The notes under the pieces are model-generated. The model had not been told where the DNA came from and did no database searches. It was given only the letters and a program-made list of their open reading frames with translations. From the IMG/VR virus record IMGVR_UViG_3300027983_000141, positions 1-21,163 of that record: a DNA stretch of 21,163 nt, one strand, 5' to 3'. Both the position numbers and the translations under genes were made by a program. Below, piece by piece: positions 15,544-19,536 of the stretch. Origin of the DNA: a virus. The number at the start of each line of letters is the position of its first letter. Position 1 is the first letter of the stretch.

Positions 15544-16515
15544 TTAAAAATTTTCATTCGGTTTGATGTTTAAATTATTGTGGATTTTATGCAATTCCGC
15601 TGTGTCATTGATTAATTTGGCGTGATACAGCTCTTTTTGCTCATCCAAACTTTTTGCACCTTTTCTTGGCATCGGGTCAATTCCGTTGATCAAGAAGCCT
15701 TTGCCGTTGTTGTATTCGAAGTACAATTCCTCGTCGATAATTGTAGGTGAACCGCCTGTAAATGTGTCTTTTATTTTTGGTGTCCCAATCATTGTGGTAT
15801 TTTTCATCGTCGGATGTTGGGTTAACCTGTGGCAAATTATAAAATTATCAGCCTTATTCGCGAAAGGTTTGCCACCTTCGATATTTGATTTTTGAGGTGG
15901 TGCAACGTGTCCGTTGTAGATGTGTTCTTTTGGGTAAAATCCGCTACTCCGACCGCTTTCTGTGTTTGGATGAGCATTGATAAAAATACTTTTTTGCTCT
16001 ATTTTGTTTATCATTTTTAGCTCATTCATCACTTTGTAATTTTCAGAATAAACAAATGGAGTGTCTAACCCATTGAACGGATCAATTAACAAACAATCCG
16101 TTTGAGTGGATAGCCACACATCTGTCAGTTGGGTAGGTGTGTACATTCTTTGATTATCAACGAATTTAAAGTAATTTTCGATAAGCATTTCAGCCGAGCG
16201 TACTTCTTTGTGATTTAATTCAAAATAATTTTTACCAGTCCATAGCTGGATTAAATCTCGCATCACTTTGTGTGCATAATTTTCGTCCATGAAAAGCGTG
16301 AATTGCAAACCATGCGTCATCGCCAAACAAAGGAAATACCATTCGGCCCAATAGGTCTTTCCGACATTATCGTGTCCTAAAATAATTGTTAATTCGCTAG
16401 GTTTGTAAACGAAGTGTTTATCTAGGTCGCAACCAATACCCAAACCCATCTGTATTTTCCCATCTGTCAACTTGGTAAGATAGTCGGTACTATGACCGTT
16501 TTTCAATATGCTCAT
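15544..16515 (-). CDS. DnaB/RecA-fold replicative helicase-like ATPase
   Basis: A 323-residue RecA-fold ATPase. Walker A is GHDNVGKT at 47-54, preceded by strand ELTIIL. A conserved-looking MDEN follows at 76-79. Walker B is DCLLIDPFNGL (140-150, Asp145), with the D-P-x-N arrangement of DnaB/AAA_25-type phage helicases. A sensor-like FINAHPNT lies at 178-185, and KADNFIICHR at about 223-232 could be the arginine-finger region. It lacks the N-terminal domain of host DnaB, as many phage helicases do. It starts in an ATGA overlap with the replication initiator-like gene, so both are made together, fitting initiator-helicase loading. Confidence 0.75.
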   Translation of the reverse strand: MSILKNGHSTDYLTKLTDGKIQMGLGIGCDLDKHFVYKPSELTIILGHDNVGKTYWAEWYFLCLAMTHGLQFTLFMDENYAHKVMRDLIQLWTGKNYFELNHKEVRSAEMLIENYFKFVDNQRMYTPTQLTDVWLSTQTDCLLIDPFNGLDTPFVYSENYKVMNELKMINKIEQKSIFINAHPNTESGRSSGFYPKEHIYNGHVAPPQKSNIEGGKPFANKADNFIICHRLTQHPTMKNTTMIGTPKIKDTFTGGSPTIIDEELYFEYNNGKGFLINGIDPMPRKGAKSLDEQKELYHAKLINDTAELHKIHNNLNIKPNENF

Positions 16516-17360
16516 AAGGCTAGTCCCTCTTTATAAAATTTGCCACCCAGTTCATTTGTCCACTCTACGCCATTGTCTAAATACTCTTTTTGCTTTAACA
16601 CTAAATAATTTTGGGCTTTTAAGTGATTTTGATTTCTTTTAACATCCAAAGTTTCAATTTGTGAAAATGGGTTTACCCTTACTTCGTCCTCCCAATGTTT
16701 ACCGTTTAACCATGTTGATGGATTTTTTCGATATTGTAAATCTGGAGTATTTTTAACGTAATTATCGACAACTGCTAAAATAGCCTTAATTTCTGAATCT
16801 TTTAGGGCTGTGAATTTTTTATGTGTTTTTTCCCTCCCTATTTTTTTGTCGTACTTATTCCAAAATAAATCAAAATCAATTTCTTTATCTTTTGATAAAG
16901 TGCTTATCTTCTCTTCTCTTCTCTTCTCTTCTCTAAATGCTATACTTTTGCCATCACTTTTTTCTAGGGTGGCTATGCTTTGGCTATCTTTTTTTTCTAG
17001 GTTGGCTATGCATCCCTTATCCTTGTTGTGTTTCTCCCATCTTTTTTTTGCGCCAATTAAACCGTTTTCAGAATAAACTTTGCTTAATTTTGTTCTTTCG
17101 GCATATTGTTCATCAAGAAAATTAATCTCGATATCATCATTAACAACCTTAATAATTCCCTCATAAACAAGTTCCTCTAGTTCCTTTTCTGCGTTTATAA
17201 TTCTTTTTTTCGCTTGTGTTAATGTAATTTCACAGTCTTTTTGCCAGTACAATGCCCTTAGAATGGTGAACACACCTTGACTTGCGTAAGTGCAATACAT
17301 AATATCCCCAGCTAAATACTCCGCTGGTTCACTTTGATAATAAGGCAATCTTTTGCTCAT
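16512..17360 (-). CDS. Phage replication initiator-like protein
   Basis: A 282-residue protein. The N-terminus (PYYQSEPAEYLAGDIMYCTY, then VFTILRALYWQKDCEITLTQ) resembles the winged-helix-like start of DUF1376/Lin1244-type phage replication proteins. The middle (about 105-155) is a low-complexity linker with repeated SIA-LEK units and a REEKRREEK stretch. The C-terminal part (FDLFWNKYDKKIGREKTHKK, then YRKNPSTWLNGKHWEDE) has the signature of O-type replication proteins, which bind the origin and load helicase; the linker or coding region of such genes often contains the origin. It is preceded by a terminator-like hairpin only about 20 bases upstream and followed by the helicase. Function is inferred from similarity of pattern and context. 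Confidence 0.65.
   Translation of the reverse strand: MSKRLPYYQSEPAEYLAGDIMYCTYASQGVFTILRALYWQKDCEITLTQAKKRIINAEKELEELVYEGIIKVVNDDIEINFLDEQYAERTKLSKVYSENGLIGAKKRWEKHNKDKGCIANLEKKDSQSIATLEKSDGKSIAFREEKRREEKISTLSKDKEIDFDLFWNKYDKKIGREKTHKKFTALKDSEIKAILAVVDNYVKNTPDLQYRKNPSTWLNGKHWEDEVRVNPFSQIETLDVKRNQNHLKAQNYLVLKQKEYLDNGVEWTNELGGKFYKEGLAL
16911..16934. repeat. Pentanucleotide repeat (CTCTT)4.8 in the initiator linker
   Basis: Four full CTCTT units plus four bases lie inside the replication gene and encode REEKRREEK on the minus strand. Gain or loss of one 5-base unit would shift the reading frame, so the tract could switch the gene off. Two nearby 20-base blocks (around 16963-17010) also repeat and encode the SIA-LEK units. 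Confidence 0.75.
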
Positions 17361-17377
17361 AATAAAAATATTTGTTT

Positions 17378-17430
17378 AATAAAAAAACCCCTCAAAAATC
17401 TAGCGGTCAGTCCAGATTTTCAAGGGGTTT
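17378..17430 (-). terminator. 17-bp terminator hairpin upstream of the initiator gene
   Basis: The stem described for the ncRNA is followed by a U tract (UUUUUUUAUU, part of it in the stem). It sits about 20 bases before the ATG at 17360, so it may end the RusA operon, end an sRNA, or act as an attenuator for the replication genes. Confidence 0.75.
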
Positions 17431-17459
17431 ATACCTAATTTCCTTACTCCTGACCGAGC
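17379..17459 (-). ncRNA. Candidate sRNA or attenuator leader with loop pseudoknot
   Basis: Between the RusA-like and initiator genes, the minus-strand RNA starting a few bases after a TATATTTG box would be about 80 nt and contains no ATG. It carries CGGUCAG (17456-17450), a 19-nt single-stranded stretch, and then arm AAACCCCUUGAAAAUCU (17430-17414), loop GGACUGACCGCU (17413-17402), arm AGAUUUUUGAGGGGUUU (17401-17385), and further U. All 17 positions of the stem pair in the minus-strand RNA, two of them as G-U; on the plus strand those two would be C-A mismatches, so the RNA is made from the minus strand. The loop CUGACCG is perfectly complementary to the 5' CGGUCAG, giving a possible pseudoknot. 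No known family recognised. Confidence 0.6.
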
Positions 17460-17464
17460 GTGTG

Positions 17465-17497
17465 CAAATATAATAAAATTATTCCAATAAATTACAC
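17465..17497 (-). promoter_or_regulatory. Promoter-like site for the ncRNA (TATATTTG)
   Basis: TATATTTG on the minus strand (17472-17465) fully matches TAnnTTTG. The upstream half is weak: a GTG at 17497-17495 at N22, or a TTG only 12 bases away. Transcription would start near 17459, just before CGCUCGGUCAG. Confidence 0.5.
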
Positions 17498-17502
17498 TTT
17501 TT

Positions 17503-17820
17503 TTAATCTATTTCTAATTTTATAAAATCCTCCCCTTTTTTAACTTTCACTTTGTACTGATGAAGTTCAGTAATTTCCTTGTCATTTACGCCATATTTTT
17601 TCTGTAAAATGTCGATAATTAATTTTGTAGGATTGTCAATATCGCTGGCCCAGTTACTGAATCCGTATGTAATTGTCAACTTTTTAAACGATTTCAATTC
17701 TACTTTCGGTAAAGATAATAAAACAAGTTTTTCGTACATCTTATATTTTTGGGTTTTGAATCTCCTGCCTTGCCACGCTTGGTTAACCGATAAAGGTTTG
17801 ATTTTTAGCGTGAATTTCAT
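17503..17820 (-). CDS. rusA: RusA-like Holliday junction resolvase
   Basis: A 105-residue protein with the RusA fold signature: the opening strand FTLKIKPLSVNQAWQGRRFK, then WASDIDNPTKLIIDILQKKY (57-76), followed by GVNDKEI. The acidic residues Asp60/Asp62, Asp70 and Asp80, with Lys66, correspond to the metal-binding and catalytic positions of RusA (D-x-D-N-x-x-K-x-x-x-D and D-D-x-x-I, here N-D-K-E-I). It should cut branched DNA formed in replication and recombination before packaging. It starts in a 4-base overlap with the phosphoesterase gene and is the last gene before the non-coding element. Confidence 0.85.
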   Translation of the reverse strand: MKFTLKIKPLSVNQAWQGRRFKTQKYKMYEKLVLLSLPKVELKSFKKLTITYGFSNWASDIDNPTKLIIDILQKKYGVNDKEITELHQYKVKVKKGEDFIKLEID

Positions 17821-18533: not shown

Positions 18534-18567
18534 ATTTTTAGATTATTTTCGTGCAAGTTACAACTTT

Positions 18568-18723
18568 TCAACTTATAAACTTATTTTTTGCTTTTATTTT
18601 TAAGTCTGTAAACTGTTTTTTTTTTGGTTGTGCATATTTAAGAATTTTCATTGTGCAGAAAATTGAACTATCGTCAACTTGTTTGTCTTCAATTATTATC
18701 TCTTTCGTGGTTTCTTGACTGTT
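18568..18723 (-). pseudogene. Open frame that may be the lost C-terminal part of the upstream gene
   Basis: In the frame +1 to the 57-aa gene, 51 codons from Asn (18723) to TGA (18570-18568) stay open, including EIIIEDKQVDDSSIF and a basic end, KKKQFTDLKIKAKNKFIS. The only ATG gives 27 residues (18651). The sequence looks more protein-like than the tail of the 57-aa gene. Removing one base from the AAAA at 18722-18725 would join the two frames into one protein of about 97 residues. Either a frameshift or a separate 27-residue peptide. Confidence 0.4.
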
Positions 18724-18862
18724 TTATGGACTTGTTTAAATCTTGAATAGATCTATGAATAGCCACGCTGCTCGTTGCATTTTTCAATCTTTCAATCCGT
18801 ATTTTTTGCAGTTCTTCGGCGCATTGGTGCATAACCCGATATTTGAATGGCAGTTTGTTCAT
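18689..18862 (-). CDS. Small unknown protein following the homing endonuclease (57 aa, perhaps truncated)
   Basis: A 57-codon frame, MNKLPFKYRVMHQCAEELQK onward, with ATG at 18862 in an ATGA overlap with the endonuclease stop, which supports real translation. It is helical and basic with no known motif. The last 11 residues (KQSRNHERDNN) are odd and unlike the rest, and a different frame is open through the same region, so the gene may have suffered a one-base frameshift at the AAAA tract. Confidence 0.55.
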   Translation of the reverse strand: MNKLPFKYRVMHQCAEELQKIRIERLKNATSSVAIHRSIQDLNKSIKQSRNHERDNN

Positions 18863-19536
18863 GATGAAAGTTGTTTTAGTGCGGTTTGGTATGCGTTTGA
18901 CGCTTCTATTTCGTCTGTGAAAAGACCTAGATGCTTAGTTTTTCCGTTAATTTTAATTGATGAAAGCCATTTTTTAGACTGTTTTTTCCAACAAACACCA
19001 TTATATTTAGAAGAAAAATTATGTTTTTTAACTTTTATTTCCTCAACCATGCCTTCCTTAACACAAATCAGCGCATTTTCATAGGTTCGGTGTGCTTCTA
19101 TTTCGTCTGTGAAACAACCTAGATATTTCAGTTTTCCGTTAACAAAAATATCTGCCCTCCATTTTTTAGCGTGTTTTTCCAAACAAACACCAGTATAGAT
19201 TGAGCTACTTTTTAAGTGTTTTTGATTTGAGTTTTCTCGATTCGTTACAATTTCCAAGTTTTCAACTCGATTGTCCGTTTTATAAAAATTAATGTGGTTA
19301 ACGACTAATTTGTGGCCACATGGTTTGTGTCCTAAAAAAGCAACTGCCACAAGTTGATGGATTGATCTTGTTTTTATCTTATTATCTTTATATAAAACAA
19401 CTGCAGAATAACCACGACTATTAATTCCTCCTTTTAATATTCTTTCTTTTCCGTACCAAAAACTTTTTACCCTACCCAAATTGCTCACTTGATACATTCC
19501 CTCATACCCCTCAATTTCTCTAAATTCCTCAATCAT
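18859..19536 (-). CDS. HNH homing endonuclease with NUMOD4 and two AP2-type repeats
   Basis: A 225-residue free-standing homing endonuclease. The N-terminal NUMOD4 (1-45) reads FREIEGYEGMYQVSNLGRVK. The HNH nuclease (about 58-105) has IHQLVAVAFLGH, then VVNHINFYKTDNRVENLEIV and NRENSNQ, with His60, His81 and Asn89/93 likely in the active centre. Two DNA-binding AP2-like units follow at about 111-157 (YTGVCLEKHAKKWRADI, LKYLGCFTDEIEAHRTYENA) and 174-221 (YNGVCWKKQSKKWLSSI, KHLGLFTDEIEASNAYQTA). Such genes spread by cutting genomes that lack them. It is fitted with ATGA overlaps on both sides (DnaA-like gene and 57-aa gene). Confidence 0.88.
   Translation of the reverse strand: MIEEFREIEGYEGMYQVSNLGRVKSFWYGKERILKGGINSRGYSAVVLYKDNKIKTRSIHQLVAVAFLGHKPCGHKLVVNHINFYKTDNRVENLEIVTNRENSNQKHLKSSSIYTGVCLEKHAKKWRADIFVNGKLKYLGCFTDEIEAHRTYENALICVKEGMVEEIKVKKHNFSSKYNGVCWKKQSKKWLSSIKINGKTKHLGLFTDEIEASNAYQTALKQLSS
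18902..19123. repeat. Internal direct repeat encoding the two AP2 units
   Basis: The 30 bases at 18902-18931 recur at 19094-19123 with about two mismatches, 192 bases (64 codons) apart; both encode the FTDEIEA end of an AP2 unit. This suggests recent domain duplication; recombination between the copies would delete exactly one unit in frame. Confidence 0.7.

Follow-up and report, generated by a model that had tools for sequence, protein, structure and literature searches.

The window (the whole 21,163-nt stretch of DNA analysed here, from a virus of Bacteroidota-type bacteria) carries, directly ahead of a replication-initiator-like gene, a leader RNA whose terminator loop can kiss the loop of a smaller hairpin at its own predicted 5′ end. 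Many other phage leaders belong to the same class. Judged from the comparison of sequences, the two hairpins and the kissing pairing between them are almost certainly a genuine RNA structure. The element is probably a cis-acting, promoter-proximal leader or attenuator of about 85-105 nt, gated by this self-kissing.

At 17472-17381 on the minus strand, a TATATTTG box is followed by a stretch free of ATG and by a 19-bp terminator; the terminator loop, ACUGACCG, can pair with CGGUCAG close to the 5′ end (Table 1). These parts occupy a 142-nt gap on that strand, between the RusA-like gene (ending at 17503) and the initiator-like gene, whose ATG lies at 17360, 20 nt past the T-tract. The preliminary description had read a TAnnTTTG box followed by RNA free of ATG and a terminator, had placed them on the minus strand, and had set the hairpin about 20 bases before the initiator gene; all of this holds, the box lying at 17472-17465 and no ATG occurring in 17464-17381. 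Its terminator also stands, with other dimensions: instead of a 17-bp stem and a 12-nt loop, RNAfold and the terminator scan give 19 bp and a loop at 17411-17404. The gap is not the only gene-free one of the replication region, as had been supposed, since nearby 18534-18688 is also empty. Hairpin 2 has the GC-containing stem and the following U-tract of an intrinsic terminator, and the window holds every part of the self-kissing class, namely box, hairpin 1, terminator with complementary loop, U-tract and ATG. Its −33 element is poor, with a TTG 12 nt from the box; in relatives the commonest distant TTG is 18-20 nt from the box. The initiator gene is likely the first of the controlled operon. 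Within it, a run of the pentanucleotide TCTTC (16913-16935) encodes a REEKRREEK stretch.

Table 1. Leader elements and neighbouring genes in the window
Feature	Position	Strand	Basis or remarks
TAnnTTTG promoter box TATATTTG, Bacteroidota type	17465..17472	-	sequence
Hairpin 1, GCUC-GGUCAG-GAGU, at predicted 5′ end	17446..17459	-	fold; stem covaries in 62 distinct relatives
Kissing loop GGUCAG of hairpin 1	17455-17450	-	fold
CGGTCAG segment	17456-17450	-	sequence
Linker, A/U-rich, single-stranded	17431..17445	-	relatives mostly 14-23 nt, 54% A, 3% G
Hairpin 2 (terminator), 19-bp stem 17430-17412 / 17403-17385	17385..17430	-	RNAfold and terminator scan; model R2
Hairpin 2 loop ACTGACCG (RNA ACUGACCG); kissing CUGACC 17410-17405	17411-17404	-	fold
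Terminator U-tract, seven T	17381..17387	-	terminator scan
Replication initiator / primosomal protein-like, 282 aa, downstream of leader	16512..17360	-	PHROG 9327 and 270 ('primosomal protein', 'replication initiation protein')
Primase/helicase-like ATPase, next operon gene	15544..16515	-	PHROG 18375 and 239
RusA-like resolvase, upstream of leader	17503..17820	-	flank used for finding syntenic relatives

The complementarity between the terminator loop and the 5′ region, which the preliminary description had pointed out, is exact over 7 bp (CTGACCG with CGGTCAG), and the homologues described below indicate that it is a real RNA feature. The window fold is more stable than dinucleotide shuffles (z = −3.6), and a loop/upstream match of at least 7 nt has P = 0.0075 in shuffles of the window alone. 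By itself this value is suggestive, and the decision had to come from relatives. It leaves some room for chance complementarity beside an ordinary terminator, an explanation that all comparative results below refute and whose probability is now negligible.

Searching phage records for DNA similar to the window element gave no real match, and a scan of genome contigs returned chance matches only. Exact scans for CGGTCAG/CTGACCG likewise yielded mostly GC-rich chance matches. The exception was locus L017, from the IMG/VR pattern scan for both heptamers, where both stems are wholly different, yet GGUCAG and ACUGACCG recur as the loops downstream of a TATATTTG box. Relaxing the scan to TATATTTG, GGTCAG and CTGACC retrieved 81 contigs, of which about 70 are A/T-rich and clearly belong to one family; the TAnnTTTG box is common to all these GGUCAG-type homologues because the scan demanded it. 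Pairing was then tallied in 62 distinct elements, free of any alignment and counted outwards from the loops. Hairpin 1 had 97-100% standard pairs over offsets 1-5 and hairpin 2 had 95-98% over offsets 1-4, and several kinds of pair were seen at each offset. The 5′ partner is thus itself the loop of a covarying hairpin, and the contact is a loop-loop kissing. The H-type pseudoknot of the preliminary description, with a linear 5′ strand, was rejected on these grounds. A covariance model built from 22 relatives, with the window excluded (R2), matches the window at 17464-17380 with 40.7 bits (E=9.4e-6). Many GGUCAG-type leaders (L052, L078, L051, L055, L045) have a further CUGAC within the 5′ side of the hairpin 2 stem. 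Possibly, this copy could pair with loop 1 before the apical loop emerges, as a switching intermediate.

As these scans had fixed the loops, the loops were next left free. The loci already fetched were scanned generically for a box, a hairpin and a second hairpin with the complement in its loop, which uncovered more leaders with other loops in the same phages (81 matches, against 0, 1 and 3 in controls with reversed, complemented and identical loops). A strict structural scan gave 225 matches, against 1 (reversed), 20 (complement) and 1 (same); we believe that the complement control is inflated by true elements, such as TGGTCA/ACCAGT, the reversed and same-sequence controls being cleaner. Two IMG/VR scans, constrained to nothing but the box, the hairpin 1 stem and a few second-stem bases, collected 59 and 16 distinct elements. 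Loop complementarity of at least 6 nt was present in 58/59 and 16/16 of them, compared with 6.3 and 0.3 when loops were swapped between elements, and the single failure looks like a chance match in a coding region. In an alignment of 20 free-loop elements the kissing helix was paired in 100% of cells, and three of its six pairs had changed on both sides, with 17 compensatory cells and none broken; these sequences are related and the cell counts are not independent events, yet a dozen or more loop states are represented. When the partner was slid by 1-3 columns, the paired cells of the structure fell from 96% to 33-52%.

At corresponding sites, other loops are paired. L020, fetched by its RusA protein only (61% identity), has a leader at the same RusA/initiator junction, composed of a box, a hairpin 1 with GCUACGAC in its loop, a terminator hairpin with GUCGUAGC in its loop and a U-tract, after which a different initiator-type gene begins with its ATG. 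Its kissing pair of 8 bp differs from that of the window, and the promoter box was found there independently. Three further complementary loop pairs came from L003, L005 and L008, which were fetched by the initiator protein of the window and carry leaders directly before the ORF. The leader is absent from L001 and L002, where the initiator follows directly after a RusA 96% identical to that of the window. The leader is dispensable, because these close relatives do without it.

Cultured Flavobacterium phages confirm the covariation of the loops at one homologous site. In mumin6-1, hemulen6-1 and morran9-1 a leader stands at the corresponding site before the replication genes, and its loops differ between the phages and remain complementary (GTGGAACG/CGTTCCAC, GTGAGACG/CGTCTCAC and GTGAGAAG/CTTCTCAC, respectively). 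Covariation of the kissing pairs was therefore found in the free-loop scans, in the alignment, in the cultured phages and in L020, and a conserved, covarying pairing between 5′ end and loop, on which the preliminary description had let its case depend, is strongly borne out there as well as in the 62 elements. A GUCGUC-type leader is present in 34 records of such phages, before an annotated endonuclease (PF07463 in the records inspected). In MN812220 (11666-12244), a leader and a NUMOD4 endonuclease lie between neighbouring genes, and morran9-1 has a different gene there (MN812219 12833-13713). This arrangement suggests that leader and homing endonuclease move together. In the window, the generic scan found no kissing leader at the NUMOD4/HNH_3/AP2 endonuclease gene (18859-19536). 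Scans of Tenacibaculum phage JQ and of parts of Cellulophaga and Leeuwenhoekiella phage records detected no convincing leader, and the class is thus not universal in flavobacterial phages. As for host chromosomes, none of 395 sampled Bacteroidota genomes had a match to the type B model or to the exact type B pattern, in scans that are weak, having been run without a positive control.

The assembled set comprises 178 distinct leaders with a downstream ORF and 34 loop hexamers; it was selected by complementarity, and the selection-free evidence is that of the free-loop scans, the alignment, the homologous site of the cultured phages, L020, and L003, L005 and L008. The loop-to-loop distance is 39-46 nt in 163/178. 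The linker length and composition given for relatives in Table 1 are those of the class. A negative correlation between linker and stem length was set aside, as uncertain stem ends can generate it. In L148 at 2824 (TCTCAC loop) and in L091 and L169 (CATCAC loop), the apical stem of hairpin 2 reaches 12-13 bp, the longest of the class besides the window. The downstream proteins fall into 36 similarity clusters, mainly of replication, recombination and homing endonucleases. They include NUMOD4/HNH/AP2 and GIY-YIG homing endonucleases, DUF6291 replication initiators, BT4734-like primases, helicases, RecT-like annealing proteins, methyltransferase-like proteins and unknowns.

At loci with more than one leader, none of 52 pairs shared a loop (permuted mean 6.3, minimum 1 in 2000). 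Such distinctness may reflect selection for orthogonality, a reading confounded by the association of leader types with gene types. Orthogonality is favoured by L164, L179, L194 and L199, each with two similar leaders whose loops differ.

How the leader might work is suggested by its layout. RNA polymerase would start just behind the TAnnTTTG box, and hairpin 1 would fold at the 5′ end. The A/U-rich linker would stay open, the terminator hairpin would come next, and its apical loop would kiss that of hairpin 1. The terminator would then either halt transcription, releasing a short leader RNA, or be read through into the replication initiator and helicase genes. The kissing might form as the terminator loop exits the polymerase, and might perhaps hinder the terminator and favour read-through. 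Comparison of the sequences shows both hairpins, the compensatory kissing pairing, the T-tract, a fixed order of parts and an ATG close behind them; we infer from these that transcription terminates at the hairpin, that downstream expression depends on read-through, and that the kissing state sets the balance. The ATG lies 8-27 nt past the stem in about 171 of the 178 leaders. From stem end to ATG there is too little room for a promoter, so that expression of the next gene must pass the terminator-like hairpin, although this spacing could partly reflect compact genomes. No purpose would be served by keeping a hairpin only as a match for the terminator loop if lengthening the stem sufficed, which favours kissing as a gate that weakens the terminator.

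The same spacing bears on a free-standing phage sRNA, a short stable transcript that would act in trans, with the next gene merely close behind its terminator. An own promoter and terminator without an ORF would fit such an RNA, as would the fact that close relatives either have or lack the whole of it between RusA and initiator. Loops never repeated within a locus are also what is expected if the RNAs could meet in trans. Yet the ATG follows closely in nearly all leaders, which precede 36 protein clusters, the terminator of an sRNA would silence these genes, and the conserved contact is intramolecular, no external target being conserved. We consider an sRNA quite unlikely. The preliminary description had offered an attenuator or a separate sRNA; the attenuator has gained ground, and a cis-acting leader is favoured because T-tract and ATG closely follow the hairpin before 36 unrelated protein clusters.

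A second alternative concerns the mRNA itself. As a stabiliser of the 5′ UTR or a translational control element, the kissing fold would shield the mRNA 5′ end or set access to the start codon, and the U-run would simply belong to the A/U-rich region in which Bacteroidota typically start translation. In most leaders hairpin 1 begins 4-6 nt past the box, at about the expected transcript start, which leaves almost no free RNA 5′ end, and hairpin 2 ends about 10-20 nt ahead of the ATG. Moreover, type C leaders lack a contiguous U-tract; their U-run comes about 4 nt after the stem (GGCAUUAACUUUU) and makes a poor terminator. Against this, a strong hairpin 2 (median about −16 kcal/mol), with at least five T among the next 8 nt in 167/178, has the textbook form of an intrinsic terminator, and a pure UTR role seems rather unlikely. 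The displaced U-run of type C does imply that termination may not be the universal output, which may partly be translational or concern mRNA stability. The element would be a conditional terminator, or a UTR element if the hairpin terminates poorly.

For the preferred cis-acting leader, a search for an alternative antiterminator helix found no complementarity to either terminator arm above shuffles. As a sequence signal, TAnnTTTG boxes on the opposite strand are not enriched either (21/178, compared with a 15% background). With no antiterminator helix conserved and no antisense promoter enriched, the kissing is the sole conserved contact between the two halves. Since the loops change freely in sequence yet stay complementary, any factor acting in trans would be expected to read the shape of the kissing complex and not its sequence. 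We tentatively propose that these are RNA-only conditional terminators of Bacteroidota phages, each with its own lock (the terminator loop) and key (the loop of the 5′ hairpin). The code would drift by compensatory change and be kept distinct within a genome, operons and homing endonucleases would be switched separately, and all leaders could be read by a single factor that recognises shape, or by the polymerase itself.

Among known systems, pT181-type attenuators combine a promoter-proximal leader with hairpins, a conditional intrinsic terminator and loop kissing in the control of a plasmid replication initiator (PMC3753616). The phage leaders share the promoter-proximal position, the hairpins, the terminator, the kissing of hairpin loops and the replication initiator gene. 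In pT181, however, a separate antisense RNA is kissed and the leader switches to an alternative helix, whereas here both loops are on one RNA and, by sequence signals, neither an antisense RNA nor a mutually exclusive antiterminator helix was found. That a counter-transcript kisses the phage leader, as the kissing-competent loops of pT181 initiator leaders might suggest, is very improbable, given the missing enrichment of opposite-strand boxes and the presence of both partners on the same RNA.

In the repZ leader pseudoknot of ColIb-P9 and IncB plasmids, long-range intramolecular loop pairing in an initiator leader controls translation, together with a leader peptide and an antisense RNA. Our leaders resemble it in such pairing ahead of a replication initiator and differ by their terminator hairpin; leader peptide and antisense RNA were not seen. 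ColE1 RNAI and RNAII pair through loops over 6-8 nt, and Rop recognises the resulting complex by its shape, whatever the sequence. Loop pairing of this length, and a factor that would likewise need to recognise shape, are common to both, whereas the kissing in ColE1 is intermolecular and involves no terminator. In the lambdoid phage HK022, put works at a few sites as a processive antiterminator, and is not known to rely on kissing with a terminator loop. The putRNA is reported to lie close to the 5′ end of an early phage transcript and to act in cis on termination (PMC9378689). In this the leaders would be similar, though their partner is the terminator itself and their loop sequence varies from leader to leader.

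Structured RNAs of Bacteroidota include 6S-flavo (RF01685) and Flavo-1 (RF01705) (PMC2864571); unlike these, no leader scanned matches Rfam. No Rfam 15 family exceeded its gathering cut-off in the window or in the leaders of 18 loci, and sub-threshold matches in the window stayed far below the cut-offs (best 23 bits, compared with 54). The only match in the scanned loci, a DUF805b RNA just before an ATG in the phage locus L133 (2119-2151, minus strand, 39.5 bits), lies away from the leader. A similar-looking sequence, GAAGCCGAAAAGCTAATAGAGTAGGC, is present just behind the kissing leader in L094. No description of such a leader was found in the open-access literature, which is not proof of novelty, and the words hairpin, terminator and promoter are all absent from the Baltic Flavobacterium phage paper (PMC7077304). 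The preliminary description had recognised no known family, and we regard the self-kissing leaders as a new family of cis-acting leader RNA; the nearest kinds each differ from it in a tested or evident feature.

This appears to be an unrecognised, common class of regulatory RNA in phages infecting Bacteroidota, placed before replication initiators, recombination genes and homing endonucleases. The natural compensatory loop changes in cultured Flavobacterium phages make its mechanism testable now. If the leaders are indeed conditional terminators, they would be naturally evolved orthogonal RNA switches of one design, with direct use in RNA regulation and in gene control in Bacteroidota.
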